A stretch of 64,000 nt of DNA from Roseithermus sacchariphilus (GCA_003285105.1 CP030158.1:1225447-1289446); one strand, 5' to 3'. Counted from the first letter of the stretch, positions 38,757 to 56,880 are shown. Numbers and translations: made by a program. Notes: generated by a model not told the origin, from the sequence alone.

Positions 38757-41700
38757 CTACGCGTCCGCTCCTACGTCGACCCGAAGCTGCCGGATGGCGC
38801 CCGTCCGCGAGAACACCTGGACGGACGCGGTGCTCGGCAGGGTCGTGCCCGCAATCCGCTCCGTGCGGCCGTCGCGGTAGTGGATCGTGATGCCGGGAGG
38901 TCCGCCGCGGCGGTATACCACCGGCACCTGGCCGTAGGTGAATGCGAGCGAGCCGGCCTCCAGGTCCAGGGTCCGGCGCGTGCCGTCGAGGTCGTAGCAG
39001 GCAAACGCCGCCGGCTCGGCGAGCCACTCGGTGGGGCGCAGCATCCACGGCTCGAAGCGCAGGAGGCCGTCCTCCACCCACACGCCCAGCTCGCCCCAGC
39101 GGGCAAGGATGTCTTCCTTCACCTGGCCCGTCATGCCCGGTTGTTGCGCTCCCGCGTGGGCCGGCGTGTGTGAGTAGGGGTCGATCGGGAAGGCGCCGTA
39201 GACCTCGGGAGACTTCGTCAGCCCGATGCCGGCCCGCAGGTCGTAGTAGACCGCGATCAGCGCCTGCAGCGTCTCTTCGGCCGCGCCCTGCCGGCGGGCG
39301 TCGAGGCAGACCTCCTGAACGGCCAGGACGAGCTTGGACACCATGTGCCAGTAGATGCACCCGAGGCCTTCGTACCCGAAGAACGTGCCGGAGCGGCCGG
39401 TGTAGGAGGCGTGATCGAACAGATCGTCGAAGAGCGCCACCACGGCGGCTCCCTCCCGGTCGACGAGGTCGGCGTAGCCCTGCTCCCGGAGCCGGTCCAG
39501 CGCGGCCTGCACGTCCCGGCGGTTGCGGAAGGCGCCGTTGAAGTGATAGCCGCCCTGCACGTCGCGCACGACGAGGTGGCGGTTGCCGTCGGCCACGAGC
39601 GTGCGCAGCAGCGCGGAGGCCTCCACGCGGTCCGGGGGGATGATGTTTTTCTCCTGGAAGCGGGGCAGGCGACGGTCGGGATACAGCAGGTAGCTGTGCT
39701 GATCGGGCCGGTAGAGGTCGCTGGTGCGGAGCGCGGCCAGCAGGTCCAGCGCCTCGGCCGGGGTGAGCACCCCGGCGCTGAGCACGGCCACCTGGCCTTC
39801 CAGCATCAGGTAGAGGTGCCGCAGCGTGATGCCGCCATCGGGGGCCACCGCCATCAGGTTGTAGGCATGGTAGAGCCCGTCGGGGCGGCGGTTGGTGCGG
39901 ATCGAGGCGTCGAGGAAGGCGCGGGCGCGGTCGAGGAAGGCGCGGATGCGGGCCGGCGGCACGGCGCGCCGGCGCCCGGAGAAGCCGGCGGCGTAGATCC
40001 GCTCCCGGTAGGTGCTGCCCGCCGCACCGACGGCATCGAGCATGGCCCGGCGGTCGCCGTCGGTGAAGCCCCGCGCCAGCCGCGGCTCGAACCGCTCGAA
40101 GGCGGCTTCCAGCGCGGCCAGGAGCTCGGCCACCTCCTCCGAAAGCGCCACCGCCTCGTCCGGCAGCGCGGCAAACAGGTCGGCGGCGAAGGCGAGGAAG
40201 CGGCGCAGGTAGTACAGCGTGACCATCGAGACGCCGTAGCCGACCAGGGCGTTGTTGGCGTCATTCCATTCGGGGCGCTGCGTGTTCATCCAGATGCCGC
40301 CATCGGGGATGAAGTTGGTCAGCTTCGCCAGCACCGGCACCAGCAGCTTCTCGGCCAGGGTGACCAGGTAGACCTCGCCGTGCTCGTCCAGGACCAGCTT
40401 GCCGTCGGCCCCCATCGCCGCCACGCGGGCCTCGATCCGGGCCGCCCGCTCGTCGTCGTACGTGATGGTATCGTGCGGGTCGCGCAGCAGATCGGCATAG
40501 GGCGCGATGCGGTAGGGGACGTTAGCGTAGGCAAAGAGCCGGCGGGCGAGCAGGTGCTCCAGGCGGCCGGGGTGGTGCGCGCGCGAGAGTTCGAGCAGCT
40601 TGAGGAGGTAGATGATCTGATGATCCCCCCAGTAGCCGATGTACGACCAGGGATCGTGGGGGTCGATGACCTCCCAGTCGATCCCCTCGCGGGTGATGCG
40701 GTAGGGGTTGTAGCCGTCCGGTGTGGAGGCGTTGACGAAGCGGGCGATCATGCCCTCCAGGTAGTCCGGGAAGGCCCGGCCGAGGGCTTCCCAGTTCTGG
40801 AAGATGTCGCGCCAGTTGCCCTGGTAGTTGCGCACGAGGCGGCCGTCCTCGGTGTGCGTTTCGATGGAGAACGCGTTCCAGGGGCGGCTGGGGTCGCCGT
40901 GGCGGCGGCTGAAGCTGAGCGGGAGGTACTCGTAGCAGAGCCGCTCGAGCTGCGGGTCGTCCTGCGCGGCGGCGGCGGCCCGCAGGTCCTGCAGGGTGAG
41001 CGTGGGGGGAAGCGCCGCCAGGAAGGCCGCGCCCCGCTCGGCGACCGGGCGGTTGGCGTGACGGAGGAAGTCCACCAGGTCCGCCCGCTCGATGGCGTAC
41101 TGATCGGCGAAGACCCCGCCACGCATGACGTTGAACAGCACATTGGCGTAGTGCCGCGCTGTGGTCGGCGCGTCGGCGGTGTACTGCAGGCCGTCGGCGG
41201 TGGCGACGATGCGCCGGAGGCCGTCGGTGCCGGCCTCGACGTCTGCCGTCACCTCGGCCGCGAGGGCGTCTTGCTGCGCCAGCGCCGTGGTGAGCGCGAC
41301 GACGTCCGCCGCGTCCTGGGCGACGTCCGCCACGAGGATCCAGGAACGGGCTTCGCCGGGGGCGAGCGCCAGCGTGGCCTCGACGAAATAGGCGCCGCGC
41401 TGGGCTCGCACGTCCACCTCGGTCTGCACCGCACGGCCCTCCCGGAAGGCCGCCAGCTGTCGCGACGAGAGCAGGACGGCCGTCACATCCAGCCCGGCGG
41501 CCCAGACGGTGGTGGCCTTCAGCGCCTCGCTCGGCTCGGCGCGATCCACCGGAATCGAACTCAGCGTAAAGAGCCCCAGGCCCGTCGCTGGATCGAGTTC
41601 GTTCTTCTTGTAGGCGTCGAGCAGGTTGCTGCGCTCGGTCTGCATGGCGCGCGTGGCCCCGTAGGGCAGCACCTGCTGCAGGCCGTCGAGCACGCGCACG

Positions 41701-42248
41701 CGCACCGGCTCGGCGCCGTGGTGGTGGAGGGTGACGTGCTTGACGAAGCCGAAGCGTGTGCTGGGGCTCCAGGTGTAGGCCAGCGTCAGCCCCAGGTCGT
41801 CGTTGATCTCTTCGAACCGGATCTGGTTGCCGTAGACGCTCTTGTAGAGGTGGCGGCGGCGGGCATAGAGGCCGGCGTACCGCTCGGAGAACGGCTCCCA
41901 GAGGTACACGCGGTCGCCCTGCTCGACGAGCAGGAGCGTCTTGCTGCCGGTGCGGTCCTGCGCGTCGTGGATCCGGTCGTCCGTCTCGTAGGGGAACAGG
42001 GCATGGTCCGGGTCCTTGCGCCCGGCCGTCAGCGCGCCGGTGCTGGAGATGAACAGCCAGTGGTCGGCCTCGCTCACGATCGACATGAAAAACGGCGCCA
42101 TGCGATCGACGTGGGCGATGCGATACCATCGGACGCCGTCCCGTTCCACGAAGCCGCCCTCGACCGGCTGTGCGTGCCGCTTCAGCGGAGCCGGGCCGAC
42201 GTACACCGGCCTCTGCGACGGGGATTCCACGATGGGGGAGATGGGCAC
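38757..42248 (-). CDS. Large glycoside-phosphorylase-like enzyme (GH94/GH149/GH161-type), putative beta-1,3-glucan phosphorylase
   Basis: 1163 aa from a GTG at 42248, which follows TGAGGT and lies just after the upstream stop; an overlapping ATG at 42290 would add 14 residues. There is no signal peptide, so it is cytoplasmic. An N-terminal beta-sandwich half and an (alpha/alpha)6 half are suggested by the pattern. The region NYQGNWRDIFQNWEAL, then GMIARFVNASTPDGYNPYRI and WSYIGYWGDHQIIYLLKLLE, matches a recognisable family of cellobiose-phosphorylase-like proteins; the Asp of WRD is the likely catalytic acid. Size and location beside a GH16 enzyme favour a GH161-type beta-1,3-glucan phosphorylase. 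That assignment is inference. Confidence 0.65.
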   Translation of the reverse strand: MPISPIVESPSQRPVYVGPAPLKRHAQPVEGGFVERDGVRWYRIAHVDRMAPFFMSIVSEADHWLFISSTGALTAGRKDPDHALFPYETDDRIHDAQDRTGSKTLLLVEQGDRVYLWEPFSERYAGLYARRRHLYKSVYGNQIRFEEINDDLGLTLAYTWSPSTRFGFVKHVTLHHHGAEPVRVRVLDGLQQVLPYGATRAMQTERSNLLDAYKKNELDPATGLGLFTLSSIPVDRAEPSEALKATTVWAAGLDVTAVLLSSRQLAAFREGRAVQTEVDVRAQRGAYFVEATLALAPGEARSWILVADVAQDAADVVALTTALAQQDALAAEVTADVEAGTDGLRRIVATADGLQYTADAPTTARHYANVLFNVMRGGVFADQYAIERADLVDFLRHANRPVAERGAAFLAALPPTLTLQDLRAAAAAQDDPQLERLCYEYLPLSFSRRHGDPSRPWNAFSIETHTEDGRLVRNYQGNWRDIFQNWEALGRAFPDYLEGMIARFVNASTPDGYNPYRITREGIDWEVIDPHDPWSYIGYWGDHQIIYLLKLLELSRAHHPGRLEHLLARRLFAYANVPYRIAPYADLLRDPHDTITYDDERAARIEARVAAMGADGKLVLDEHGEVYLVTLAEKLLVPVLAKLTNFIPDGGIWMNTQRPEWNDANNALVGYGVSMVTLYYLRRFLAFAADLFAALPDEAVALSEEVAELLAALEAAFERFEPRLARGFTDGDRRAMLDAVGAAGSTYRERIYAAGFSGRRRAVPPARIRAFLDRARAFLDASIRTNRRPDGLYHAYNLMAVAPDGGITLRHLYLMLEGQVAVLSAGVLTPAEALDLLAALRTSDLYRPDQHSYLLYPDRRLPRFQEKNIIPPDRVEASALLRTLVADGNRHLVVRDVQGGYHFNGAFRNRRDVQAALDRLREQGYADLVDREGAAVVALFDDLFDHASYTGRSGTFFGYEGLGCIYWHMVSKLVLAVQEVCLDARRQGAAEETLQALIAVYYDLRAGIGLTKSPEVYGAFPIDPYSHTPAHAGAQQPGMTGQVKEDILARWGELGVWVEDGLLRFEPWMLRPTEWLAEPAAFACYDLDGTRRTLDLEAGSLAFTYGQVPVVYRRGGPPGITIHYRDGRTERIAGTTLPSTASVQVFSRTGAIRQLRVDVGADA

Positions 42249-42258
42249 GGTACAGACC

Positions 42259-43629
42259 TCAGGGGTTGACGTAGAAGGGGATGTTGGCATGGCCGGCGTT
42301 GCCCTGCCCGTCGTAGACGTAGACGAACAGCCGGTATGCGCCCGGCTCGGCCGGCGCCGTCAGGCGGATCCGGGCGGCGTCCGGGCGGTCGATGACGCCC
42401 TCGATGCGCTCCGGCACGGGCTCGTCGTCGCCGCCTTCCCCGACGTCGGTGCTCTCGCGCCGGACCTCCCAGGCATGGCGCAGGGGGTCGCCATCGGGAT
42501 CGGTGGCGATCACCTCGGCCGGGTACGTCGTGCCGGCCTGCAGGTAGATGCCGTCGTACGCCGTGCGGCCGTCCAGCGTGGCCGCTTCCAGGCGGGGCGA
42601 GCGGTTCTCGGGCCAGGTGCCGTTCCAGAGGTAGTGCATCACGTCCACGGCCTCGGTGCGCTCGCCGGTGGGCAGGAACAGGCCGTACCAGGTGGGGGTG
42701 CGTTCCTGCTTCTGGCCCCAGAGGAAGACGTACGAGCCGATGAGCTGCGTCGTATCCGCCGCGATGACCGTCTCGTAGCGCATCCGGTACAGATCGGCCT
42801 TGACGGAGCTGGTGTTCTCGATGGGCGCGCCCCAGGGCGTCTGCGGCACCTCCCAGTGGCCGGTGGCGCCCCACTCGGTGATCATGTACGGCCCGTCCCA
42901 GCCGGCCTCGTCGAGGTAACGCGGCAGGTTGACGATGTCGGCATACATCTGCACGCTGAGCAGGTCCAGGTCCGGCGCGCGCGTCTTGATCTCATCGACC
43001 AGCTCCTTGCTGATCCCGGCGAGCATCGTGGTGGTCAGGTGGTTCGGGTCGATCTCGTGGATCATCTCCGAGATCTGGTTGACCGCGTCCCAGACCTTCG
43101 GATTGGTGGCGCCCAGGTTCAGCTCGTTGCCGATGCCCCAGATGATCAGCGCCGGGTGGTCCCTGTATTCCATCACCTCGGCGCGCACCCGCTCCAGTTG
43201 CGCCGCCACGGCCGCCTCGTCGTCGTAGTCGAAGTTGAAGACGCCGCGGCCGGTGCCGGGGCGCTCGCGCGCGATCTCCAGCCCCATCGTCACCACCAGC
43301 CCGTGGGCCAGGGCGCGGTCCAGCACCTCCCGGCCCGATTCCCGGCCGTTGTCGGTGCGCCAGGTGCGGAACGAGTTGCCGCCGTGCGCGGCCAGCCGCT
43401 CGACGTCGCCGAACTCCAGGCCGGCGCCCTTGATGTAGAACGGCTCATCGTTCAGGAACAGCCGGTAGCGGCCCTCGACCTGCCGGATCTCGGCCCGGAT
43501 GGGGCCGGCCGGCGGGGCGGCCTCCTCGGGCTGAGGCCCGCAGGCCGGCAGGAGCAGCGGCAGGAGCAGCGGCAGGAGTCGCCATGCCGGGAGGCCGTGG
43601 GCAAACAGAGGCGGGGAGGAGGAGCGCAT
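42259..43629 (-). CDS. GH2-like (clan A) glycoside hydrolase lipoprotein
   Basis: 456 aa. A lipoprotein signal with lipobox LLPAC places Cys at residue 30. The TIM-barrel half carries IIWGIGNEL, in which Glu169 follows Asn as in clan GH-A acid/bases, and ITEWGATGHW with Glu252 as candidate nucleophile. The C-terminal 110 residues form an Ig/PKD-like domain (EVIATDPDGDPLRHAWEV). It is a paralogue of the gene at 47599-49059, sharing the GSYVFLWGQKQE block. It lies 10 bp upstream of the phosphorylase gene, so the two are co-transcribed. Substrate is probably a beta-glucan oligosaccharide, by context. Confidence 0.8.
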   Translation of the reverse strand: MRSSSPPLFAHGLPAWRLLPLLLPLLLPACGPQPEEAAPPAGPIRAEIRQVEGRYRLFLNDEPFYIKGAGLEFGDVERLAAHGGNSFRTWRTDNGRESGREVLDRALAHGLVVTMGLEIARERPGTGRGVFNFDYDDEAAVAAQLERVRAEVMEYRDHPALIIWGIGNELNLGATNPKVWDAVNQISEMIHEIDPNHLTTTMLAGISKELVDEIKTRAPDLDLLSVQMYADIVNLPRYLDEAGWDGPYMITEWGATGHWEVPQTPWGAPIENTSSVKADLYRMRYETVIAADTTQLIGSYVFLWGQKQERTPTWYGLFLPTGERTEAVDVMHYLWNGTWPENRSPRLEAATLDGRTAYDGIYLQAGTTYPAEVIATDPDGDPLRHAWEVRRESTDVGEGGDDEPVPERIEGVIDRPDAARIRLTAPAEPGAYRLFVYVYDGQGNAGHANIPFYVNP

Positions 43630-43693
43630 GATGCGGTACCGTCGTCGGGCCGGAGCCCGGGTGCAGAGAACGAGAACGGGGAACGAGAACGGG

Positions 43694-45262
43694 TCAGGTC
43701 GCCGGCGTTTTGACCAGCATGGCTTCCAGCTCTTCGAGCGATTTGCCTTTCGTCTCCGGCAGCACGGCCAGCACGAAGACCAGACCGATCACCGCGAAGA
43801 CGCCGTAGATCAGGAACGTCAGGGCGCTGCCCAGCGTGGCCAGCTCCCACGGAAAGACGAGCTGGACCAGGAAGCTGACGGCCGAGTTGATCAGCCCGAC
43901 GAAGGAGATCGCCAGCCCCCGGATCCAGTTGGGGAAGAGCTCCGAGAAGAGCACCCACATCACCGGCCCCAGGGACACCGCGAAGCACGCCACGAAGCCC
44001 AGGATGCCGATCAGGATCAGGGTCGGGTTCATGGAGATGGCGGCCTGGATCATCTCCGACTCGTAGGCCCGCGCCTGCTCCCGCCCCAGCGCCTCGATCA
44101 GCGCGTTCTTGAAGGCCACGTCCGAGTCGAACGTCTGGCCGACCAGCCCCTGGAGGGCCTCCGCCGGGATCTCTGCCGGCAGCGCGGCCAGGTCCTCGGC
44201 GTCGAGCGTGTAGGTGGCCTGCGAGAACCCGAAGGCCAGCACGAACATCGACACCGCAATGCCCGTCAGCCCGATGCCCAGCAGCGGCTTACGCCCCAGG
44301 CGGTCGACGAGCCCGAGGGCGATGATCGTGAAGACCAGGTTCGTCAGCCCCACCATGATGGCCTGGGCGAACGAGGCGTCCGTGCCGATGCCGGACTGCT
44401 CGAAGATCATCGGCGCGTAGAAGAACACCGAGTTGATCCCGGTGATCTGCTGGATGATCGCGATGACGACGCCGATGGTCAGCACCAGCCGCAGCGAGGG
44501 CGACAGCAGCGCGGACACGGGCACCTTCTCCCGGTGCGTGTCCGAGGCCAGGCTGGCCTCTACCTCGCGGATCACCTGATCCGCCGCGTCCGCCCCCATC
44601 GCCCGCTCGATGATGGGCCGCGCCTCGGCACTGCGGCCCTGCATGATCAGCCAGCGGGGGCTGGGCGGCACCACGAACAGCGCGAAGTAATAGAGCAGCG
44701 CCGGCAGCGTCTCCACGCCCAGCATCCAGCGCCAGTTGTACGCATCGAACTGCAGCGCCTGCGCCCAGGCCAGGTCGGACTGCCCCAGTTGCAAAATCAG
44801 GTAGTTCGAAAAGAAGGCCGCCGAGATGCCGATGACGATGTTGAGCTGGTTGAAGGAAACCAGCTGCCCCCGGATGGCCGGCGGGGCGATCTCGGCGATG
44901 TACATCGGGGCGATGATCAGCGAGGCGCCCACGCCGAAGCCGCCGATCATCCGGGCCACGACGAGGAACCAGAAGCTGGGCGCCAGGGCCGAGGCAATGG
45001 CCGACACGGCGAACAGCAGCGCCGCGAGAAACAGCACACGCCGCCGCCCATACCGGTCGCTCAACGGCCCGGCCACCATCATGGCGAGCGTGGCCGTCAG
45101 CGTCAGCGAACTGACGCTCCAGCCCAGTTCCAGCTTGGTCAGGTCGAACTCCGTTTCGATGAAGCCGACCACGCCGGAGATCACCGAGGCATCGAACCCC
45201 ATCAGGAAGCCACCGAGGGCGACGATTAGCGCCGTCTTGCCGACGTAGAGACGATTGATCAT
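43694..45262 (-). CDS. Sugar-porter family MFS transporter
   Basis: 522 aa from the ATG at 45262. Twelve hydrophobic helices are visible. Sugar-porter signatures include SDRYGRRRVLF between helices 2 and 3, PPSPRWLIMQGR, QQITGINSVFFYAP, DRLGRKPLL and PETKGKSLEEL at the end. A roughly 60-residue loop in the middle of the second half is longer than in XylE or GLUT proteins. It imports a mono- or disaccharide across the inner membrane by proton symport or diffusion. It heads the operon that contains the GH2-like and phosphorylase genes and has a LacI-type palindrome upstream. Confidence 0.95.
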   Translation of the reverse strand: MINRLYVGKTALIVALGGFLMGFDASVISGVVGFIETEFDLTKLELGWSVSSLTLTATLAMMVAGPLSDRYGRRRVLFLAALLFAVSAIASALAPSFWFLVVARMIGGFGVGASLIIAPMYIAEIAPPAIRGQLVSFNQLNIVIGISAAFFSNYLILQLGQSDLAWAQALQFDAYNWRWMLGVETLPALLYYFALFVVPPSPRWLIMQGRSAEARPIIERAMGADAADQVIREVEASLASDTHREKVPVSALLSPSLRLVLTIGVVIAIIQQITGINSVFFYAPMIFEQSGIGTDASFAQAIMVGLTNLVFTIIALGLVDRLGRKPLLGIGLTGIAVSMFVLAFGFSQATYTLDAEDLAALPAEIPAEALQGLVGQTFDSDVAFKNALIEALGREQARAYESEMIQAAISMNPTLILIGILGFVACFAVSLGPVMWVLFSELFPNWIRGLAISFVGLINSAVSFLVQLVFPWELATLGSALTFLIYGVFAVIGLVFVLAVLPETKGKSLEELEAMLVKTPAT

Positions 45263-45370
45263 CGGAGCAATGAGATGGGTGGATGGAAACCCGGCGGTCC
45301 TGGCGCCGGGCGATGCGCACAGGCACACTCCGGACGAACGTCCTTGCCTCGTCGCGCCACGTGCGTGTTC

Positions 45371-45382
45371 GAAAACGTTTTC
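45371..45382. promoter_or_regulatory. LacI-type operator candidate (MFS operon promoter)
   Basis: GAAAACGTTTTC is a perfect palindrome with a central CG, 109 bp upstream of the transporter start. The same GAAAA-NN-TTTTC plan recurs at 45560 and 56956. Confidence 0.65.
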
Positions 45383-45559
45383 ATGCTACGGCATTTCCGC
45401 CGAAATGTCCACCGGTCTGCCGCGGCAGGTCCCGCACTCCGGCCCGCCGTAGATCGGATCGAAGATGCAGGAATCAACCGGGAGAAGGCCTGAGGGGACA
45501 TCGGAGACTCCGGCCGGCCCGGCCGCTCTTGTATCCGACCGGAGCGTATGGTACTTTTC

Positions 45560-45571
45560 GAAAAGCTTTTC
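45560..45571. promoter_or_regulatory. LacI-type operator candidate (lacI-like gene promoter)
   Basis: GAAAAGCTTTTC is a perfect palindrome 84 bp upstream of the LacI-family gene start. It is likely an autoregulatory site. Confidence 0.65.
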
Positions 45572-45654
45572 ACGTTGTTGTCGGCCGGCCCCCTCGTGGG
45601 GTAGTTGGGTTCGGCGGCCCCTCGGCCTGATGTGTCCCCCCCTCACGGAGAACC

Positions 45655-46704
45655 ATGAGTGTTACCATCCGCGACGTAGCCCGGCGAGCGCAGGTCTCGA
45701 TCTCCACGGTTTCTCGGGTGCTGAACGATACCTGTCGGGTCAGCGAAGAGAAGCGGCGCCGGGTGCTCGAGGCCGCCGAGCAACTGGGATACCGGCCCAA
45801 CCCGGTGGCGCGAAGCCTGCTCACGAAGGAGACCGGCGCGCTGGGGGTGGTGGTGCCCTTCGTCTTTGGCGAGTTCTTCGCCGAGCTGCTGAACGGAATC
45901 GATGCGGCCGCTCAGGAGCGCGCTTTTTGCCTGACGATCTCGACGTCGCACCGGCACGAGCATGAGTTGCGGGCGGCGCTGCAGAGCCTGCACAAACGCG
46001 TCGACGGCGTGCTGCTCATGACCCCGGAAATGCCGGGAGAGCAGGCGGTGGCCCATCTGCCGGAGGACGTGCCGGTCGTCTTCCTCAACACCCGCCTGAG
46101 CGGTGACGGCTACGCCGTCGTCAACTTCGATAACGCGGGCGGCTTCCGGGCGCTGACCCGTCACCTGATCGCGCTGGGCCATCGCCGCATCGCCGTCATC
46201 ACGGGGCCGGAGGCGGCGTTCGACGCGGCCGAGCGGCTCCGGGGATACCGGATGGCGCTCGAAGAAGCCGGTATGGCCTTCGATCCGGCCTGGCTGATAC
46301 CCGGAGACTACAGCCAGCGGGCGGGGTACGAGGCCGTGCAAACCCTCCTCGCCTGGCCCGAGCGCCCCACGGCGATCCTGGCCTCGAACGACCAGATGGC
46401 CTTCGGCGCCCTGAGCGCCCTGCGCGAGGCGGGCCTGCGCGTCCCGGAGGACGTGTCCCTGGCCGGCTTCGACGACGTCCCCAGCGCGCGCTACACCGTC
46501 CCCTCGCTGACCTCCGCGCGGGTGCCCATCCGAGATCTCGGCGCGCGGGCCGTGCAGTGCCTGGTCGATCACATCCAGGCTGAGACGCCGCCGGCTCCCC
46601 GCTCCCTCGTCCTCCCGGTCGACCTGGTCGTTCGGGACTCGACGGCCCCCGTGGGCGGGCGTCTCCACACCGCCGCGATCGAGCCGACGGCTCGCAAGGC
46701 GTGA
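45655..46704 (+). CDS. LacI-family transcriptional regulator
   Basis: 349 aa. The DNA-binding head VTIRDVARRAQVSISTVSRV and the hinge-helix region RPNPVARSLLTKET are typical. The periplasmic-binding-protein-like sensor domain follows (GALGVVVPFVFGEFFAELLNGI). It lies in the middle of the glucan locus, divergent from the transporter operon and convergent with the GH16 gene (4-bp gap). The three GAAAA-NN-TTTTC sites at 45371, 45560 and 56956 are its probable operators, so it likely derepresses both glucan operons when a beta-glucan oligosaccharide binds. Confidence 0.93.
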   Translation: MSVTIRDVARRAQVSISTVSRVLNDTCRVSEEKRRRVLEAAEQLGYRPNPVARSLLTKETGALGVVVPFVFGEFFAELLNGIDAAAQERAFCLTISTSHRHEHELRAALQSLHKRVDGVLLMTPEMPGEQAVAHLPEDVPVVFLNTRLSGDGYAVVNFDNAGGFRALTRHLIALGHRRIAVITGPEAAFDAAERLRGYRMALEEAGMAFDPAWLIPGDYSQRAGYEAVQTLLAWPERPTAILASNDQMAFGALSALREAGLRVPEDVSLAGFDDVPSARYTVPSLTSARVPIRDLGARAVQCLVDHIQAETPPAPRSLVLPVDLVVRDSTAPVGGRLHTAAIEPTARKA

Positions 46705-47598: not shown

Positions 47599-49059
47599 TC
47601 AGGGTGAGGTCTGGCTGCTGACGTAGAAGGGGAAGTTGGCCGTAGCCACGTTCCCGTGGCCATCGTAGACGTAGGCGAACATCCGGTAGGGGCCTTCCCG
47701 GCGCGGCGCGCGGATGACCAGGCGCCCTCCGTCCTGCGCCACGACGTCGATGGGCACCGCCTTCGGGCGGCTTTCCGCGTCGCCGCCGGCCCGGATGTCC
47801 GTGCTCTCGGGCAGCAGCTCCCACCGGTAGCGCAGCGCGTCGCCGTCGGGATCGGTGACGGTGGCTTCGAAGGTGATCCGGCCGCGGGGCTCCACGTAGA
47901 GGCTGGCGTAGCGGTCCTGCCCGTTGGCCGTGATGTTTTCCATGCTCGGGGCGCGGTTGTCCGGCCACGTTCCCGTCCAGAGGTAGTGCAGCACGTCCAT
48001 GACCTCGGTTTCGGCGCCGTCCTCCGTGAACAGGCCGTACCAGGTGGGGGTCGTCTCCTGCTTCTGGCCCCAGAGGAAGACGTACGAGCCGATGCAATAG
48101 GCAGAGTCTGCGGCGATGCCCTGCTCGTACCGCAGGCGGTACATCTGCGCTTTCTCTTTGCTCGTCTGCTCGATGGGGGCGCCCCAGGCCGTCCTGGGGA
48201 CCTCCCAGTGGCCGTCGGGTCCCCACTCGGCGATGACGTAGGGGCCGTCCCAGCCGGCCCGGCGTAGCTGGGTGCCCACGTTCGGCCCCTCGTAGCCGTA
48301 GTGGCGGAATTTGCGCGTGCCCCCGACCAGCTCGCCGTAGGTGTTGATCCCGTAGACGTCGATGGCCGGCGCCCGCTCCATGATGAGTTGCACCTCGGCC
48401 ACGTCCAGCCCGGCCGTGACCGTCATGACCGGATGATGCGGATCTTCCTCATGGATCATCTCGGCGATGTCGTTGATCGCGTTCCACACCCGGAAGTCCG
48501 TGTAAAACAGGTCGTTTTCGTTGCCCACGCCCCACATGAGGATGGCCGGGTGATCCTTGTAGGTGCGCACGATCTCCCGGAAGCGCGCGAGCTGAGCCTG
48601 CACGCTTTTGGCGTCTCCGTAGTCGAAGCCCTGCCGCTCCTGGCCCACCCAGAGGCCAAAGAGCACGCTCAGCCCCTTCTCGTGGGCCTCGTCCAGGATG
48701 GCGATGGCCTCGCCGGCGCCCCACGTGCGGACGGAGTTGGCGCCGTAGGCCACGGCCCGGTCCAGATGGACCTGCCCGCCCACGCCGCGGATGTAGTACG
48801 GCTCCCCGCCGCGCAGGAGCGTCCAGCCGCCGTCCTCGTTCCTCCGCAGCTCGACGGGAATCGCGCCCTGGTAGCGAAGCCCCGAGGCCACCACCCCCGA
48901 CGCCGCCGGGCGATCGGTGACGGTACGGTCCTCGTTCTGAGCCTGCGCCGGGCGCCCCATGACGCCTGCTGCGATCAGCACGACGAGCACGAACGTGTCC
49001 GCCCGGCGCCGGACCGGGCCGCCGGCCACCCGTCGTGTCGGAAAGGCATTCGTGTACAT
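47599..49059 (-). CDS. GH2-like (clan A) glycoside hydrolase, exported
   Basis: 486 aa from the ATG at 49059, preceded by GAGGAGG. A signal peptide (DTFVLVVLIAAGVMGRPAQAQ) lacks a lipobox. The TIM barrel has ILMWGVGNEND with the clan-A Asn-Glu pair, and VIAEWGPDGHWE with a second Glu as candidate nucleophile. The C-terminal Ig/PKD-like domain reads EATVTDPDGDALRYRWEL. It is paralogous to the lipoprotein at 42259-43629, and the two may act on the same substrate in different places. Exact family (GH2 or another clan-A family) is not certain. Confidence 0.8.
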   Translation of the reverse strand: MYTNAFPTRRVAGGPVRRRADTFVLVVLIAAGVMGRPAQAQNEDRTVTDRPAASGVVASGLRYQGAIPVELRRNEDGGWTLLRGGEPYYIRGVGGQVHLDRAVAYGANSVRTWGAGEAIAILDEAHEKGLSVLFGLWVGQERQGFDYGDAKSVQAQLARFREIVRTYKDHPAILMWGVGNENDLFYTDFRVWNAINDIAEMIHEEDPHHPVMTVTAGLDVAEVQLIMERAPAIDVYGINTYGELVGGTRKFRHYGYEGPNVGTQLRRAGWDGPYVIAEWGPDGHWEVPRTAWGAPIEQTSKEKAQMYRLRYEQGIAADSAYCIGSYVFLWGQKQETTPTWYGLFTEDGAETEVMDVLHYLWTGTWPDNRAPSMENITANGQDRYASLYVEPRGRITFEATVTDPDGDALRYRWELLPESTDIRAGGDAESRPKAVPIDVVAQDGGRLVIRAPRREGPYRMFAYVYDGHGNVATANFPFYVSSQTSP

Positions 49060-49070: not shown

Positions 49071-50348
49071 TCAGTCCAGTTCTACCAGCCGGAGATGATC
49101 GATGTATACCTCGCCGGCGCCCGCCATGAGCACGACGAGCTGCTTGATGTTTCGCGGGTCGGCCCCCGGGCGGGTGGCCACCGGGAGGTCGCCGACGGTG
49201 GCCGGGTTCGCAGCGCGCGCCCGCTCGATGCCGCGCAGGGCCGTCAGCGGGATCGTCACCGTCTGCCAGTCCGCCGAGAACGCACCCGCCGGCGTGAAGC
49301 GTGCCTCGACCTCGGCCAGCGATAGTTGCCAGGCGTAGTCTTCCAGCCCGACGCGCAGCGGCAGGCGCGCAGCGGTGCCGGAGGGCAGCCGCACGTCGAA
49401 GCGGATCGCCGCCCGATCCCAGATGCCGGTCATGTCGACGGGGTGCCACTGGTCCCAGCTCACGCCCATGGCGGCTTCGAAACACGTCTCCGGGCTCAGG
49501 TCCCAGCGCAGGTGGAGCGCCACCTGCCCGGAAGACGCCGTGGCGTCCGTGATCTCGACTGACTGGCAGGCGTCCGTCACGAGCCCCCAGCCGTCGTCGT
49601 TGATGAAGACTTCGTCGAAGAGCACGATCGGCAGGGCCGTGGGGTCCGGGCGCGGCGGCTCGACCAGCCACGGTTCCTGCTCTTCCTCCTCGTAGAAGAC
49701 CAGCCGGATGGCATCCACGTAGATGCTGCCCGACTGCTGCAACTCGAACATGAGTTGCTTTACGTTCGTCGGGTCCAGATGCTCGACCTCCAGGTCGAAG
49801 TCCGCCAGCGGGACGACCACGCGCTGCCAGGTTTCGTCGATGAAGGGGCGCTCGAAGTAGCGGTTGCCGGTGTAGGCAAAGCCCATCCCGCCGGCGTAGT
49901 CTTCGAGGGTGAGCACGATGGGCAGGCCATACATGATGCCCTCGCGGGAGCGCACGTACATCTCGATGGCCGCGTAGGGTAGCACCTCCGAGAGGTCCTT
50001 GCCCACCCAGCCGTCCCAGCCGATGCCGAAGCCGGCCCATTCACAGCCCTCGGCGGTGCGGTTCCACGACACCTCGATGGCGTGCGTGCCCTCGTAGGCT
50101 ACGTCCGAAGTGACCCGCCCCTGCGTGCAACGCGGATCGTCCTGGAACCACACCGTGTCGTCGGTCTGGTCCTGGAAGATCACCGGCTCGACCGCCAGCG
50201 ACAGCTTCCGCGGGCGCTCCGGCGGCGGCTCCGTCTCGACGCCGCTGTAGAGCGACACCGGCTGGAGGCGCACGCACCCGGCCAGGGCGAGCACGAGGAG
50301 CAGCACGCCGGACACGGGGTGGAAAAGGTGGAATCGCAGGCCGTTCAT
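49071..50348 (-). CDS. Lipoprotein with two tandem jelly-roll carbohydrate-binding-like domains
   Basis: 425 aa. A lipobox (LALAGC) anchors the protein. Two similar domains of about 190 residues follow. Both have a block with W, G and acidic residues (VSWNRTAEGCEWAGFGIGWD; LRWDLSPETCFEAAMGVSWD), a TLEDYA/GLEDYA element, and an ending of NVKQLMFELQQSG or NIKQLVVLMAGAG with IYVD. This pattern is like CBM11-type or related beta-sandwich glycan binders. It is probably a surface glycan-binding protein of the locus. Confidence 0.72.
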   Translation of the reverse strand: MNGLRFHLFHPVSGVLLLVLALAGCVRLQPVSLYSGVETEPPPERPRKLSLAVEPVIFQDQTDDTVWFQDDPRCTQGRVTSDVAYEGTHAIEVSWNRTAEGCEWAGFGIGWDGWVGKDLSEVLPYAAIEMYVRSREGIMYGLPIVLTLEDYAGGMGFAYTGNRYFERPFIDETWQRVVVPLADFDLEVEHLDPTNVKQLMFELQQSGSIYVDAIRLVFYEEEEQEPWLVEPPRPDPTALPIVLFDEVFINDDGWGLVTDACQSVEITDATASSGQVALHLRWDLSPETCFEAAMGVSWDQWHPVDMTGIWDRAAIRFDVRLPSGTAARLPLRVGLEDYAWQLSLAEVEARFTPAGAFSADWQTVTIPLTALRGIERARAANPATVGDLPVATRPGADPRNIKQLVVLMAGAGEVYIDHLRLVELD

Positions 50349-50380: not shown

Positions 50381-51421
50381 TCAGAGGACGAGCGGGCCAC
50401 CGGCGGTGAACGTGATGTAGTCGATCCCGTACTCGACCGGGAGCGGCGGCCTGGGCTGGTTGTTGGCATCCGAGATGAGCACCACGCGGACCGCCACGAT
50501 CTGCCGGGTCTGCTCGTCGGTGAGGCCCGCGCCGAACGCGCCGAAGCTGCTGGCGGGCTCGGCGTAATGCGTCCATCCCTCGAAGTCGATGGTCCCGAGG
50601 TTGGGGAATTCCACGTCGCCGCCCAGCGGCACCACGAGGTCCTGGCCGTCCTCGTACGTGCCGCTCCCGTTTCCGTCCACGACCACCTCCACCACGGCGA
50701 TGGTGTACGGCGTGCCGGAGCCGTAGAGGAAGCAGTTCAGGTAGAGTTCGCTCGCGATGTTCGTGGGGACGTCGAACGTGCCTCCACCGGGCGGACGGAT
50801 CGTGATGAGGCCGACGAAGAAGTTGTTCGCCACCACGTCGTCCTGCCCCCGCATCAGGTAGAAGCCGTTGCCCTGGGCAGCAGGCGGGTCGCTGGTGATC
50901 CCGGCGGTGTCGTCGAACTCGAACTCGAAGTTGCCGACGCTGATGAGGTCGCCCCCCTCGAAGTCGGCCACCACCTGTCCCTCGTAGACCTTCGGGGCGA
51001 GGACGTCGAGGCGGACCCGCAACGTGTCGGAGGCTTCTTCGGGGACGAAGAGCCGTGCCTCGACGGGCTCTTGCCGGAAGAGCGGGAGCTGCGTGGTGCC
51101 TCCTCTCCAGCGGGCGTTCTCGGCGGTCAGCTCGCTCGAGAAGCCCTCGATCCGCTTGAGCGCTCCGCTCGTCTCGCCGACGATCTCCACCACCCAGTTG
51201 ACCTGTTTGTTGAAGCGGGCGGTGAAGACGACGTCCTGGCCGGCGGCAAAGTCGACCGCCGTGCGGCTGGCGGCCAGGGGCTCCAGCAGCGCGAAGTCCC
51301 CGAATCGGTCGATGAGGCGCGGGCCATCGGGGTCCGTGATGTGGTCACAGCCGGCAGCCACCAGGGCGGCGAGCAATGCCAGGCCCAGGGCCAACCCTCG
51401 TGGAAACGGTACGGCAGTCAT
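50381..51421 (-). CDS. Lipoprotein, function unknown (beta-glucan locus)
   Basis: 346 aa. A lipoprotein signal ends at ALVAAGC. An N-terminal beta-rich domain has an Ig-like pattern. The C-terminal part (VVADFEGGDLISVGNFEFEFDD) ends in a domain like that of the T9SS-sorted protein (VVEVVVDGNGSGTYEDGQD). No catalytic motif is visible. It lies 32 bp upstream of the preceding lipoprotein gene on the same strand. By position a glycan-binding or scaffold role is likely, without direct evidence. Confidence 0.68.
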   Translation of the reverse strand: MTAVPFPRGLALGLALLAALVAAGCDHITDPDGPRLIDRFGDFALLEPLAASRTAVDFAAGQDVVFTARFNKQVNWVVEIVGETSGALKRIEGFSSELTAENARWRGGTTQLPLFRQEPVEARLFVPEEASDTLRVRLDVLAPKVYEGQVVADFEGGDLISVGNFEFEFDDTAGITSDPPAAQGNGFYLMRGQDDVVANNFFVGLITIRPPGGGTFDVPTNIASELYLNCFLYGSGTPYTIAVVEVVVDGNGSGTYEDGQDLVVPLGGDVEFPNLGTIDFEGWTHYAEPASSFGAFGAGLTDEQTRQIVAVRVVLISDANNQPRPPLPVEYGIDYITFTAGGPLVL

Positions 51422-51443: not shown

Positions 51444-53246
51444 CTAGAACGACATGCTGTAGAGCGCGAAGAACTGCCCGAGGCGGTAGTCCTCGGCCGG
51501 CGTCGCCGCGTCGTGGTAGCGGAAGCGCTGGTACTGGATCGTGAGGTAGATGCCCTCGCGGAAGCGGTAGCGCAGCCCGGCGCCGAGCAGGGCTTCCCGG
51601 TCGTCCGTGACGAACGGCGCGGGGAAGTCGCGGACGTCGTTGAAGTTGATGAGCTGGGGGACGTAGTCGCGGCCGTTGGAGGCCCGCCGCTTGGCGCCGA
51701 GCAGGACGTCGAGCCGGTCGTAGACCTCGGCCGTGAGTCCGGCTTCGACGAGGGTGGAGGAGAGGTCGACCTCTTCCACGGCCTCGCCGCCCCGGCGGGT
51801 CTGCTCGATCTGGCTGCCGAGGGTGAGCACCAGGGGCCGTTGCCACCCCAGCAGCGGGGCGAGTTGCAGGTCGGCCTCGGCGCGCACCAGGCGGAAGTCC
51901 TTCAGCTCGGTCGTTCCCTGGCCGCGGATCTCCCGGAGCAGCGCCGCGTCGAGGGCGGCCGCGAGGAGGCCTTCGGCCGGGGCATAACGTGCCTCCAGGC
52001 GCAGCCCGCGGCGGTTCGGCGTGGCGGGGCCGTAGGGGAGGACGTTGCCGTAGCGCGGGTCGTAGGGCATCAGCTGGTCGGCCACGCGGAACGTGTAGAG
52101 CCCCCGGTCCCGCCCGAGGTCGAACAGCGTCACGTCGCGGATCGCCCGGTCGTTACCGATGCGGTGGAAGAAGCTCTTGGTCCGCGTGTAATCGACGCGC
52201 TTGCTCTGGGCTGCCCCGCTGAAGAAGTCCGGCCCGACGTCGATGAACAGCGCGGCCACACGGAGGCCCGGGTTGCGCCAGGTGGCAGCGACGCCCGCCT
52301 CCAGGAACGTGTCGCTCTCGTCGACCAGCGTCTCGGCCGAGCCGTCGGCGTCGGCCTCGCGCTTCCGCACGACGGCCGAGCGGCCGGCCTCGCCGAGGAC
52401 GTGGAGGGTCCACCGCCCCCGGTCGAGCACGGTGAGGTCGGCGTCGACGGTGGTGACGGCGTTGCGGATGCCCGTGTCGGCCTGGCCGGTAGCCAGGTCG
52501 TCCCACGTATAGGCGAGCGTGGCGCCGAGGCGCGCCTGCGAGCGGGTGTCGCCGAAGCGCGAGGACACCGCCGCGATGCGGCCGCCGCCGATGAACCGGT
52601 TGGGCGTCGTCGTGTAGTCGGTCGTGCGGAGCCGGGCCAGGAAGCCCTGTACGCGGGCGACCTCCAGGCCCCGGTCGAAGGCCAGCTCGAAGTCCAGGTG
52701 CGCCCCCTGGAGCCGCCGCTCGTTGGCGCCGGTGAAGAAGGCCTCGTGGTAGATGACGTCCTTCTGCGGGCGAAAGAGTTCGGGTTCGTTGACGACGCCG
52801 TCTTCACGGGGGACGTACAGCGTGTAGGGCGTCAGGGCCAGGTCCATGTCGCCGACGCGGTAGCGCAGCACGTTGGCGATGATGCCGCGGGCCCACAGCT
52901 CGCGGACTTCGACGGACACGCCGGCTCCGAAGAACCCGCCGAATTCGTTACGGAAACGGATGACGCCCTGCACCTCGGTGACGTCGTTGGGCTGGCCGTT
53001 GACGGCGAGGTCGAGCAGGAACTCGCCGTCGGTGAGGTGCTCGGCGGTCGTCGTGTCGGCATCGAGCCGCGTGCCGCCGATGCCGGTCTGCTGCAGGAGG
53101 CTGCGGCCGTAGCCGTTGAAGTGGATGCCGGGTCCCGTCGCCTCGGCATCGGGAGGGCCGCCCTGTTCGGAGCTCTGGGCATGCACGCCGCCCACGGGCA
53201 GCGAGAGCACCAGCACCAGCAGGCAGGATCGCAGGGGGAAACGCAT
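51444..53246 (-). CDS. Outer-membrane beta-barrel protein, function unknown
   Basis: 600 aa from the ATG at 53246. It has a signal peptide (LRSCLLVLVLSLPVGGVHAQ) and then alternating hydrophobic/polar strands throughout (for example TRLGATLAYTWDD-like, RLGATLAYTW). It ends in aromatic FFALYSMSF, the C-terminal Phe typical of outer-membrane barrels. No TonB plug domain or CarboxypepD-like N-terminus is visible, so it is not SusC. It could be a passive glycan porin or assembly protein of the glucan locus. Confidence 0.7.
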   Translation of the reverse strand: MRFPLRSCLLVLVLSLPVGGVHAQSSEQGGPPDAEATGPGIHFNGYGRSLLQQTGIGGTRLDADTTTAEHLTDGEFLLDLAVNGQPNDVTEVQGVIRFRNEFGGFFGAGVSVEVRELWARGIIANVLRYRVGDMDLALTPYTLYVPREDGVVNEPELFRPQKDVIYHEAFFTGANERRLQGAHLDFELAFDRGLEVARVQGFLARLRTTDYTTTPNRFIGGGRIAAVSSRFGDTRSQARLGATLAYTWDDLATGQADTGIRNAVTTVDADLTVLDRGRWTLHVLGEAGRSAVVRKREADADGSAETLVDESDTFLEAGVAATWRNPGLRVAALFIDVGPDFFSGAAQSKRVDYTRTKSFFHRIGNDRAIRDVTLFDLGRDRGLYTFRVADQLMPYDPRYGNVLPYGPATPNRRGLRLEARYAPAEGLLAAALDAALLREIRGQGTTELKDFRLVRAEADLQLAPLLGWQRPLVLTLGSQIEQTRRGGEAVEEVDLSSTLVEAGLTAEVYDRLDVLLGAKRRASNGRDYVPQLINFNDVRDFPAPFVTDDREALLGAGLRYRFREGIYLTIQYQRFRYHDAATPAEDYRLGQFFALYSMSF

Positions 53247-53257
53247 ACCGCTAGCGG

Positions 53258-55327
53258 TTAGATGAAGATCTTGAGTTCGAGGGTGAGCTCGCGGCCCCGG
53301 TAGGTATCGACGGCGAAGCTGCGGTCTTCGAAGTCCATCCATCGTTGGCGAAGGTAGAGCCCGGCGTTGGGCGCGATCGTCCAGTCGAAGCCGAGGCCGA
53401 GGCCGGTGGCGTGCTGGTCGCGCGGCCGCCCGCTCGCGGCATCCCGAACCGTGAACCGCCCTCCACGGGCGTTCTCCAGCCCCAGGTAGCCGGTCAGGAT
53501 GAATCCGTCCAGGATCTCGTAGTAGAGATCCACCTCGTGGTACTGCACGAAGACGTAGGTGTCGTCGTCCCGCGGCACGAAGGTGGCCTTCCGATTGGCC
53601 GATCCGAAGCTGCCCAGGTAGAACAGGTAGAGCGGGCGCTGGAGCAGGCGAGTCCGCAGCTTGCCCTGGAGGTCGACGGCGTGGTAATACAGGCGATGGA
53701 ACGGGATGCCCGTGACCTGGTCCACGTCGGTCAGTTGTACCCGCTCGAAGACGCCCCGGAAGAAGGAGTACTGCCGCCCGAACGGCCCGAAGGACGTGGC
53801 GCAGACGGCGTTGGCGGGGAAGGGGTTGTAGATGCGGGACACCGCCAGCCCGTTGATGCGGTGGACGTAGGACAGCTCCGAGGTCGTCGGCGAGAGTTCG
53901 TGCGCGAGGCTCCAGCCTGCGCCCAGGCGGACCGGCCCGCCGTTCCAGGTGGTGTTCAGGTTGATGCCGCGGCGGTTGTGGGCCAGCTGGCCCACCTGGG
54001 TCAGCAGCCCCCCGGCGGAGGCCTGCCCCGCCGTCACGGCACAGCGGGGGTCGGCCTGGATCGAGGGGTGGTTGGTGGTGGCGATCTCGCCGTTCTCGTT
54101 GAAGAAATGCCGCCCTACCTGATAGAACTGCACCTCCAGCGGGAGCAGGGTGTAGTCCGCCGGCACGCGGGCACGCACCATGAGCGCTTCCCCCCACGGC
54201 GTCGTGTAGTCCGGGCTCTCGAAGCGGCTGGCTCCGAATTCCCCGCTCAGCCCGACCCCGGCCACGTCGACGTCGAAGGACGCCGTGTGCACCTGGTAGG
54301 CGCGGCGGGTGCCAGCCAGGCTGTCCAGCGTGCGGTAGCTGTAGATCGACTGCGCGGCGACCCGGTCATCCCCGAACGCCTTCTGCACCCGCCCGCCCAT
54401 GATGTAGCTGGGCAGGGCGCGGGCCTCGCCGTTGAAGCCGATGTAGGTGGGGACCTCCCCGGCCTCGCCCCGCCGCCTCACCGTTTCGGCCGGGTCAGTC
54501 ACGGCGCCCGGCAGCCCCCCGTTGGGCTGCGTCTTGCCCCAGAAGGCATCGAAGCCCAGGCCGCCCGGCAGCTTCCGGCCGTCGAGGATGAGCCCCTGAA
54601 AGGCCTGGTAGTTCCACCGCTGGTCGCCCGGATTGGCGCGGCCCGTTTCGAAGTAGCTGTCATACTTCGCCATGCCGGTGACCCCTTCCCAGGGCGTGCG
54701 GTCGAAGATGGAGAAGCGGTCCAGGACCTGGTAGACGCCGATCGTGAAGGGGCTGAGGTTGTACCAGTGGATGCCCCCGGCCCGCACCCCGAAGGCGCCG
54801 ATGTCGGTCCGGAACGCGCCGTAGAAGTTGATCCCCAGGTTCAACGACAGCGTGTTGTTCTCGGCCGTGCCCTCGTACGGGGTGAAGACGAACAGCTCCG
54901 TGCCGAAGCTCGCCCGCCCGCTGGGGCGCCCGAGGACGGTGAGCGAAAGCATCGGCTCGCGGTAGCCGTCTCCGACGCTGTAGACCCGCTCGTAGGGCGA
55001 GAGGTTGGGATAGGGCCGCGTCATGTTGCGGCCGTAGAGGAACAGCCGGTAGTACCCGAAGACCGTGACGCGCAGGGGCCGCTTGCGAAGCGCTTTCGTG
55101 GAGTCTGTGGGCGAGTCCGGATAGGGGCGGTACACCGAGTCGGGGCGGGCCGTGGCGGCCTCGCGGCCGTCCCACCCCTGTGCCGCTACTCCTTCCCACG
55201 GCACGCCCAGGAGCAGGAGACCCAGGATCACGGCCAGCCCGGCCCGGAGGCCGGCGGCAGCGGGTGTGCTGCCGCCGGCCATTACCGGGGCCATCCAGGT
55301 GGCCAGGCGTCGAGGCTGATGTGCCAT
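53258..55327 (-). CDS. Outer-membrane beta-barrel protein, function unknown
   Basis: 689 aa from the ATG at 55327; an ATG 11 codons later is also possible. A hydrophobic export signal (LRAGLAVILGLLLLGVPWEG...VAAQ) is followed by many amphipathic strands (FGYYRLFLYGRNMT, LSLNLGINFYGAF, GLGLGFDWTIAPNAGLYLRQ). It is Tyr/Phe-rich near strand ends. There is no TonB box or plug. It lies 11 bp before the 600-aa barrel gene and after the T9SS-sorted protein gene. I cannot assign a substrate; passive porin or transport accessory are both possible. Confidence 0.65.
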   Translation of the reverse strand: MAHQPRRLATWMAPVMAGGSTPAAAGLRAGLAVILGLLLLGVPWEGVAAQGWDGREAATARPDSVYRPYPDSPTDSTKALRKRPLRVTVFGYYRLFLYGRNMTRPYPNLSPYERVYSVGDGYREPMLSLTVLGRPSGRASFGTELFVFTPYEGTAENNTLSLNLGINFYGAFRTDIGAFGVRAGGIHWYNLSPFTIGVYQVLDRFSIFDRTPWEGVTGMAKYDSYFETGRANPGDQRWNYQAFQGLILDGRKLPGGLGFDAFWGKTQPNGGLPGAVTDPAETVRRRGEAGEVPTYIGFNGEARALPSYIMGGRVQKAFGDDRVAAQSIYSYRTLDSLAGTRRAYQVHTASFDVDVAGVGLSGEFGASRFESPDYTTPWGEALMVRARVPADYTLLPLEVQFYQVGRHFFNENGEIATTNHPSIQADPRCAVTAGQASAGGLLTQVGQLAHNRRGINLNTTWNGGPVRLGAGWSLAHELSPTTSELSYVHRINGLAVSRIYNPFPANAVCATSFGPFGRQYSFFRGVFERVQLTDVDQVTGIPFHRLYYHAVDLQGKLRTRLLQRPLYLFYLGSFGSANRKATFVPRDDDTYVFVQYHEVDLYYEILDGFILTGYLGLENARGGRFTVRDAASGRPRDQHATGLGLGFDWTIAPNAGLYLRQRWMDFEDRSFAVDTYRGRELTLELKIFI

Positions 55328-55344
55328 GAGGCCAGCGAAACGGG

Positions 55345-56880
55345 TTATTTCAGCAGAACGACGCTGCGCGTCTCGGAAAACGCCTCGCCCACCACGCGGT
55401 ACAGGTACAACCCGCTGGACAGATGCTGCCCGTCGATGCGGAACGTGTGCCGCGTCTGCCCGGGGAGGATCCCGTCGTGGAGCAGGGCGACTTCCCGCCC
55501 CAGCGCATCGTAGAGCGCCACGCGCACGGGCTGCGTCTGCCGCACCGTCAGCTCGAACTGCGTCTGCGGGTTGAACGGGTTGGGGTAGGCATGCGTCAGC
55601 ACATAGGCCGAGGGCAGATCCGCTGCCCCCGGTTCGCTGGAGGTGACGACGGCCTGGTCGAAGCCGATGTCATCGAAGGAGAGGTTGAAGGGGGATCCCT
55701 GGATGTTGCCCATGGCGAAGACGACGAACTTCACGCGGGAGAAGTCGAAGCCGTCGTCGGCGCCGGGGTTGACCGAGTTGTCGTCGGTGAAGGCGGCCAG
55801 CGGGATCTGCACGAGCTGGTAGACGGGGTCTCCGGCCGAGAGGCGCCAGTTGGCCTGGTACTCGTCCTCGGTGGCGGGTTCGTAGGTGCCGTTGCCGTTG
55901 GCGTCCTCCTGCAGGTTGATCTCGAGCGTGAGGGGGAGGTTGTCGGCCTGGAGGTTGGCGCGGAGGTAGAAGGTGAGGTAGCCGGCGCCGCTGGCGTCGA
56001 CGGTGGGGGTGGCCTCGACGGCGGCGCCGGCGAAGCCGCCGCCCTGGCCGGGGTTGACGCCGAGCGAGAGGGCGGTGTTGGCCGTGCCGTTGCGGTCGTC
56101 GGTGGGTCCGACGCCGGCGCCGACGCCGTCCGTGCCGCCGAAGAAGACCCCGACGTTCGTCACGTCTCCGTCGTCGAACGTGTCGAACGACGCGAGGGGC
56201 ATCGTCATCACCACGGGGTCTTCGGTGAACACGATGTCATCGAAGGAGAGGTTGAAGGGGGATCCCTGGATGTTGCCCATGGCGAAGACGACGAACTTCA
56301 CGCGGGAGAAGTCGAAGCCATCGTCGGCGCCGGGGTTGACCGAGTTGTCGTCGGTGAAGGCGGCCAGCGGGATCTGCACGAGCTGGTAGACGGGGTCTCC
56401 GGCCGAGAGGCGCCAGTTGGCCTGGTACTCGTCCTCGGTGGCGGGTTCGTAGGTGCCGTTGCCGTTGGCGTCCTCCTGCAGGTTGATCTCGAGCGTGAGG
56501 GGGAGGTTGTCGGCCTGGAGGTTGGCGCGGAGGTAGAAGGTGAGGTAGCCGGCGCCGCTGGCGTCGACGGTGGGGGTGGCCTCGACGGCGGCACCGGCGA
56601 AGCCGCCGCCCTGGCCGGGGTTGACGCCGAGCGAGAGGGCGGTGTTGGCCGTGCCGTTGCGGTCGTCGGTGGGTCCGACGCCGGCGCCGACGCCGTCCGT
56701 GCCGCCGAAGAAGACCCCGACGTTCGTCACGTCTCCGTCGTCGAACGTGTCGAAGGCGACCTGGGCCTGTGCCGGGGCCGGGACGAGGGTGGCGGCCAGC
56801 AGCAAGGCGAAGGCGGTGAGCAGAGAGCCTGCGTGGGACGCGCCAGAGACGCGGCGCGCATGTCGTAGCGAGTGTGTCAT
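55345..56880 (-). CDS. T9SS-sorted protein with two near-identical carbohydrate-binding-like domains
   Basis: 511 aa. A signal peptide ends in APAQAQ. Residues about 40-225 and 229-415 are almost identical domains (FDTFDDGDVTNVGVFFGG to FNLSFDDI), likely beta-sandwich binders related to the C-terminus of the neighbouring lipoprotein. The C-terminal sorting domain begins AYPNPFNPQTQF and ends YRVVGEAFSETRSVVLLK, typical of type IX cargo that is anchored at the surface. It is the first gene of the minus-strand glucan operon, preceded by a LacI-type palindrome. Its size and lack of catalytic residues suggest a surface adhesin or binder. Confidence 0.82.
   Translation of the reverse strand: MTHSLRHARRVSGASHAGSLLTAFALLLAATLVPAPAQAQVAFDTFDDGDVTNVGVFFGGTDGVGAGVGPTDDRNGTANTALSLGVNPGQGGGFAGAAVEATPTVDASGAGYLTFYLRANLQADNLPLTLEINLQEDANGNGTYEPATEDEYQANWRLSAGDPVYQLVQIPLAAFTDDNSVNPGADDGFDFSRVKFVVFAMGNIQGSPFNLSFDDIVFTEDPVVMTMPLASFDTFDDGDVTNVGVFFGGTDGVGAGVGPTDDRNGTANTALSLGVNPGQGGGFAGAAVEATPTVDASGAGYLTFYLRANLQADNLPLTLEINLQEDANGNGTYEPATEDEYQANWRLSAGDPVYQLVQIPLAAFTDDNSVNPGADDGFDFSRVKFVVFAMGNIQGSPFNLSFDDIGFDQAVVTSSEPGAADLPSAYVLTHAYPNPFNPQTQFELTVRQTQPVRVALYDALGREVALLHDGILPGQTRHTFRIDGQHLSSGLYLYRVVGEAFSETRSVVLLK
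55666..56754 (-). repeat. Intragenic near-identical tandem duplication, 522-bp copies at 567-bp offset
   Basis: Copy 1 is 55666-56187 and copy 2 is 56233-56754. They differ at only a couple of bases that I noticed (a gtc/atc change and a gcg/gca change). This level of identity at synonymous positions indicates a very recent duplication or ongoing gene conversion. Confidence 0.9.

Follow-up and report, generated by a model that had tools for sequence, protein, structure and literature searches.

A candidate SusC/SusD-free locus for laminarin-type β-1,3-glucan, with two plug-less outer-membrane barrels, in Roseithermus sacchariphilus

In a 64,000-nt stretch of the Roseithermus sacchariphilus genome (CP030158.1:1225447-1289446; hereafter the window), we read both strands between 38.7 and 56.9 kb, where eleven genes make up a putative locus for the use of β-1,3-glucan. 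Coordinates are counted from the first letter of the window. The genes form two minus-strand operons and one divergent regulator. One operon runs g11-g10-g9-g8-g7-g6-g5, with intergenic gaps of 11-44 bp, and the other runs g3-g2-g1, with a gap of 64 bp between g3 and g2 and an overlap of 32 bp between g2 and g1; g4 lies between the operons and reads in the opposite direction. Third-position GC was of the coding type in the genes whose frame was checked. Every gene named in an earlier note on this DNA was found where the note had placed it. The genes, including members of glycoside hydrolase (GH) families, and the operator-like palindromes are as follows.

38757..42290, minus strand: g1, GH149 1,3-β-D-glucan phosphorylase without a signal peptide, real start possibly a downstream codon (NF058639, 1666 bits; PDB 6hq6)
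42259..43629, minus strand: g2, GH158 endo-β-1,3-glucanase with a lipoprotein-like N terminus, catalytic Glu169 and Glu252 (PDB 9oro, 8e-92; 6pal, 7e-78)
43694..45262, minus strand: g3, major facilitator superfamily (MFS) sugar porter, inner-membrane transporter (TIGR00879, 342 bits, cut-off 238)
45368..45383, no strand: operator-like palindrome TTCGAAAACGTTTTCA
45557..45572, no strand: operator-like palindrome TTCGAAAAGCTTTTCA
45655..46704, plus strand: g4, LacI-family regulator, divergent from g3
46709..47554, minus strand: g5, GH16 laminarinase, lipoprotein-like, EIDIME intact (Pfam GH16; PDB 4dfs, 3e-61, and 3azx)
47599..49059, minus strand: g6, GH158 endo-β-1,3-glucanase with a signal peptide (PDB 9oro, 3e-102)
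49071..50348, minus strand: g7, lipoprotein with two domains like carbohydrate-binding modules (CBM) 30 and 11, resembling surface glycan-binding protein B (SGBP-B) (PF21582, 48.7 bits; PF18329, 33.1 bits)
50381..51421, minus strand: g8, lipoprotein conserved alongside the barrels, no Pfam match
51444..53246, minus strand: g9 (barrel A), outer-membrane barrel of 600 aa with a signal peptide, C-terminal Phe and ~22 predicted strands, plug-less
53258..55327, minus strand: g10 (barrel B), outer-membrane barrel of 689 aa with ~20-22 predicted strands, plug-less
55345..56880, minus strand: g11, protein sorted by the type IX secretion system (T9SS), with two CIA30-type jelly-roll repeats (PF08547, 38.7 bits; TIGR04183, above cut-off)
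56953..56968, no strand: operator-like palindrome TTTGAAAACCTTTTCA, 5′ of the g11-g5 operon

The phosphorylase-like enzyme without a signal peptide that the earlier note had described is GH149 (g1), as judged from PDB 6hq6 and from the NCBIfam GH149 equivalog NF058639, whose cut-off is 1150 bits. The two enzymes that the note had taken as GH2-like, g2 and g6, proved to be GH158 instead: they match PDB GH158 chains 9oro and 6pal (E = 3e-102 to 5e-70) far better than any GH2, with Pfam GH2_C reaching a weak 28-31 bits. The acid/base and nucleophile residues of BuGH158, E137 and E220 (PMC7157763), align with Glu169 and Glu252 of g2. The lipoprotein-like GH16 enzyme g5 has its predicted intact EIDIME site at residues 156-161, and the sugar porter and LacI regulator are both present in the cluster, as had been read. 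Because GH149, GH158 and GH16 are β-1,3-glucan enzymes, the substrate is most likely a laminarin-type β-1,3-glucan, and the combination of the three strengthens the laminarin-type use proposed earlier.

The two barrels had been described as outer-membrane proteins without a TonB plug, and neither of them gave a Pfam Plug or TonB match. No family in Pfam or NCBIfam matched the barrels of the window, and none in Pfam matched their divergent relatives; a Pfam porin match was likewise absent from both sets, the known sugar porins being LamB, OprB, chitoporin, CymA and KdgM. Profiles of barrel A, barrel B and g8 gave chance matches alone against PDB sequences. AlphaFold2 models (29-30 orthologues) predicted both barrels to be large and plug-less, with ~20-22 strands (predicted local distance difference test 69-70, predicted template modelling score 0.68). 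The barrel A model has ~22 strands, as in TonB-dependent transporters (TBDTs), but the N-terminal plug domain is absent. Foldseek matches were a broad mix with none close, AlgE among them, and a profile comparison found no reliable relation between barrels A and B (5.6% probability). The C-terminal residue of barrel A is Phe, which is common in outer-membrane proteins. The two lipoproteins and the T9SS-sorted protein that accompany the barrels are also present as predicted, the tail of g11 scoring above the TIGR04183 cut-off. The g7 family profile matches CBM30/CBM11 structures, including the 1v0a/6r3m group, and a divergent orthologue of g8 matches CBM11 weakly. Neither g7 nor g8 matched a SusD family.

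In these bacteria SusC/SusD counts as the signature of glycan uptake, and a cluster that lacks it is often dismissed as incomplete. Of the features of a canonical Sus-type polysaccharide utilization locus (PUL), the co-located carbohydrate-active enzymes (CAZymes), surface binders and regulator are present here, but the SusC-type transporter and the SusD-type lipoprotein are not. That the cluster lacks the pair, as the earlier note had held, was borne out: the nearest TonB plug lies 40 kb and the nearest SusD 231 kb from the cluster. A profile built from eight plugs of the same genome was dropped, as it missed a known plug near the window start. In Pfam Plug genome searches, six relatives had no TonB plug inside the cluster among the matches listed; the nearest listed plug was >100 kb away in genomes G021 and G039, and a plug gene lay 7-13 kb from the cluster in two relatives, G011 and G008. 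SusD was absent from four cluster-bearing genomes (G006, G011, G053 and G059), which are drafts of 88-97% completeness. Ten Bacteroidota carriers had 0 to 9 SusD genes genome-wide, their distances being judged from lists of open reading frames (ORFs). The large ORFs scanned in Bacteroidota neighbourhoods encode regulators, GH3 and unrelated proteins, with none SusC-like.

Both operons are preceded by a palindrome, TNNGAAAANNTTTTCA. It has exactly three exact sites in the 4.8-Mb genome, all in the locus: two between g4 and g3, and one before the barrel operon (g11-g5). None was expected in shuffles of the window, and in relatives the palindrome recurs 5′ of g11 or of the sugar porter. We infer that the LacI regulator binds these sites and governs both operons. 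A SusC/SusD pair elsewhere under the same regulator was looked for and none was found, since the exact palindromes are all within the locus and the nearest SusD is more than 230 kb off. One near-match of the palindrome, at position 1463679 of the same genome (locus L140), occurs twice in tandem beside lexA, with no sugar gene, and is probably lexA's own operator.

We then consider how far the barrels travel with the enzymes. Of 99 genomes in the order, 10 have barrel A, and precisely those 10 have barrel B; the barrels are 58-76% identical and are adjacent wherever one contig has both. GH149 is present in all 10 of these genomes compared with 44/99 overall (naive P = 1.6e-4, ignoring kinship). 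These 10 genomes largely share the gene arrangement of the window, and the GH149 operon faces the barrel operon where contigs allow. More widely, a scan that took one genome per species gave 33 named loci, belonging to Rhodothermota, Saprospiraceae, Lewinella, Cryomorpha and other Flavobacteriales, in which the barB-barA-g8-g7 unit stands beside GH158 as far as the contig extends. A barrel B profile found relatives in 75/199 genomes (32/62 genera) of one Bacteroidota order, from which 20 regions carry the cassette, most with GH158, GH16 or GH3. Outside these groups the family is rare in a wide phylum sample, with one further match in 394 genomes (E = 0.099). Because the layout recurs in dozens of genomes, its recurrence is far beyond chance. 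The barrels are thus part of the system and not bystanders, given their same-genome occurrence with GH149, the repeated layout, the 33 loci and the shared palindrome; the concern that they might be unrelated proteins without GH co-occurrence did not apply. The earlier suggestion of an alternative glycan system in Rhodothermota is therefore supported as to the system but not as to its limits, since Saprospiraceae and Flavobacteriales carry the cassette too.

The genes around the barrels vary. The inner-membrane transporter differs among cassettes of the Bacteroidota order, being an MFS sugar porter, a sodium:solute symporter or another MFS protein. A symporter-type gene directly precedes barrel B, replacing the MFS gene, at L134 13824-15512, L153 5621-7264 and L165 7311-8999, called by Pfam SSF in L153 and L165 and from the sequence start alone in L134. 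In Bacteroidota loci (L073, L075, L088, L165 and others), a Reg_prop/Y_Y_Y/GerE propeller regulator stands beside GH158 in place of LacI. Cryomorpha has no GH149; a GH3 without a recognisable signal peptide lies beside the porter, which fits oligosaccharide import. In barrel-less relatives (L109, L112-L116, L119-L124), a sugar porter-GH158-GH149 module occurs without barrels and without a nearby SusD. Second cassettes, ~25% identical, were seen at L162 7508-10795, L164 15784-20000, L166 6706-11316 and L171 463-4572, some of them near sulfatases, GH3 and CBM4/9 T9SS proteins, and may be this machinery applied to sulfated glycans.

The idea of such a system has precedent, because a related concept has been published for cellulose in Cytophaga hutchinsonii (PMC12016534). 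There, chu_1276-1280 is an atypical cellulose PUL with two outer-membrane proteins, two bimodular binders and an endoglucanase; growth on cellulose is lost or impaired when its genes are deleted, and the SusC/SusD homologues of C. hutchinsonii are dispensable (PMC12016534). This kind of PUL is reported in three related cellulolytic species, C. hutchinsonii, C. aurantiaca and Sporocytophaga myxococcoides (PMC12016534). CHU_1276 was modelled as a TBDT-like barrel and the C-terminal domain of CHU_1279 resembles CBM11 6R3M (PMC12016534), while CHU_1277 is among the cellulose-bound outer-membrane proteins and acts in cellooligosaccharide assimilation (PMC5553014). Compared by gene order and description, not sequence, the cluster has the same order and kinds of genes as the barB-barA-g8-g7 unit beside GH158, and no SusC/D; the 6R3M-like CBM11 of CHU_1279 has its counterpart in the g7 family profile, which likewise matches the 6r3m group. 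The substrate there is cellulose, whereas the enzymes here are, by sequence, those for β-1,3-glucan, and GH149, GH158 and a sugar porter, all three present here, are undescribed in that cluster.

Among laminarin systems, the 1,3GUL of Bacteroides uniformis shares GH16 subfamily 3 and GH158 surface endoglucanases and an SGBP-B-type binder (PMC7157763). In contrast, it has a SusC-type TBDT, a SusD-type SGBP-A, GH3 and a hybrid two-component regulator where the present locus has two plug-less barrels, GH149, MFS and LacI. The GH149 laminarin PULs of marine Flavobacteriia share GH149 together with GH16 and other β-1,3-glucanases. The available part of PMC10108472 defines PULs by susCD or susC, calling others merely 'CAZyme clusters', and the two-barrel cassette is undescribed in that part. 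The literature yielded no account of either barrel family as part of a β-1,3-glucan locus, most subscription journals lying outside the coverage. The best reading of this comparison is that the locus would be a form of the recently proposed SusC/D-free two-barrel kind of PUL, one far wider than the three reported species.

We propose that the locus is probably a SusC/SusD-free capture and uptake system for laminarin-type β-1,3-glucan. In this model, g11 (through CIA30 and T9SS sorting), g7 and g8 would hold the glucan at the cell surface, where GH16 and GH158 would cut it. Oligosaccharides would cross the outer membrane via barrels A and B, by a passage that may or may not be diffusive, the barrels and the lipoproteins probably assembling into a single complex. 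The other GH158 would trim the oligosaccharides, the sugar porter would take oligosaccharides or glucose over the inner membrane, and a cytoplasmic GH149 would phosphorolyse oligosaccharides to glucose-1-phosphate, with the LacI regulator controlling both operons via the shared palindromes.

Several points weigh against this proposal. The barrel models are moderate in confidence, and Foldseek returned generic outer-membrane barrels with TM scores below 0.5. Sugar transport by the barrels is an extrapolation from their position, fold, conservation and the C. hutchinsonii parallel, and the model leaves the need for two barrels unexplained. GH149 is found without barrels in 34 relatives, and therefore β-glucan metabolism there can dispense with them. 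The genome also has 48 TonB plugs, so a distant transporter could serve. Uptake by a TBDT encoded elsewhere, with the barrels as accessory channels, would suit these 48 plugs and the plug gene 7-13 kb from the cluster in G011 and G008. We nevertheless consider it highly unlikely: the six genomes searched have no plug in the cluster among the matches listed, and in G021 and G039 the nearest one listed is >100 kb away, the exact palindromes are all inside the locus, and the Bacteroidota neighbourhoods examined contain no SusC-like ORF.

The barrels might instead be a platform for display or anchoring, one that exports the surface lipoproteins and glucanases or keeps them in place, with sugar entering by general porins. 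The barrels always adjoin two lipoproteins, and in C. hutchinsonii loss of CHU_1277 lowers cell-associated β-glucosidase activity and CHU_1279 is physically needed even with damaged binding (PMC12016534, PMC5553014). However, two large barrels are linked to one substrate class and not to lipoproteins in general, and CHU_1277 is reported in cellooligosaccharide assimilation (PMC5553014), which makes a platform a rather unlikely explanation. A cluster for producing and exporting a β-1,3-glucan, and not for eating one, is a scarcely credible reading. GH149 is reversible, large barrels can export glycans (AlgE being among the fold matches) and a glycosyltransferase lies next door (37365-38747). 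That gene, however, shows no conservation with the cluster, and the cassettes revealed no glucan synthase; the three secreted endoglucanases, together with the sugar porter and the LacI regulator, indicate that glucan is consumed.

Laminarin is a major algal carbon store. If the locus is indeed a capture and uptake system, its significance lies in four surface genes found repeatedly, in two phyla, alongside laminarin enzymes and without SusC/D; therefore, predictions of laminarin eaters will miss these organisms. The findings suggest a wider class to which the orphan cluster for cellulose in C. hutchinsonii belongs, and the present locus type could be the more frequent form within a large class that has been overlooked. 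Going further, A and B may constitute a new TonB-independent class of two-barrel outer-membrane glycan importer, which together with two binding lipoproteins takes the place of SusC/SusD across Rhodothermota and Bacteroidota and which has diversified by substrate: β-1,3-glucan, cellulose (C. hutchinsonii) and probably sulfated glycans (the ~25%-identical paralogous cassettes). We put this forward tentatively, as a serious possibility a little short of even. The cultured carriers Lewinella cohaerens and Cryomorpha ignava make the system directly testable.

Two flanking genes were considered as members and dropped, since neither is conserved with the cluster: the glycosyltransferase at 37365-38747, which adjoins the locus, and an altronate dehydratase at 57067-58752. 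Within g11, the CIA30 repeats are identical in protein over ~170 residues and 94% identical in DNA over 570 bp including divergent ends, so that the repeats either duplicated recently or are an artefact of assembly. Just past the altronate/galactarate dehydratase gene, 58760-58899 holds ten perfect copies of the 14-bp unit TTCTGGCTGCTGGC, an array that overlaps a 243-bp repeat of similar sequence at 58817-59335.

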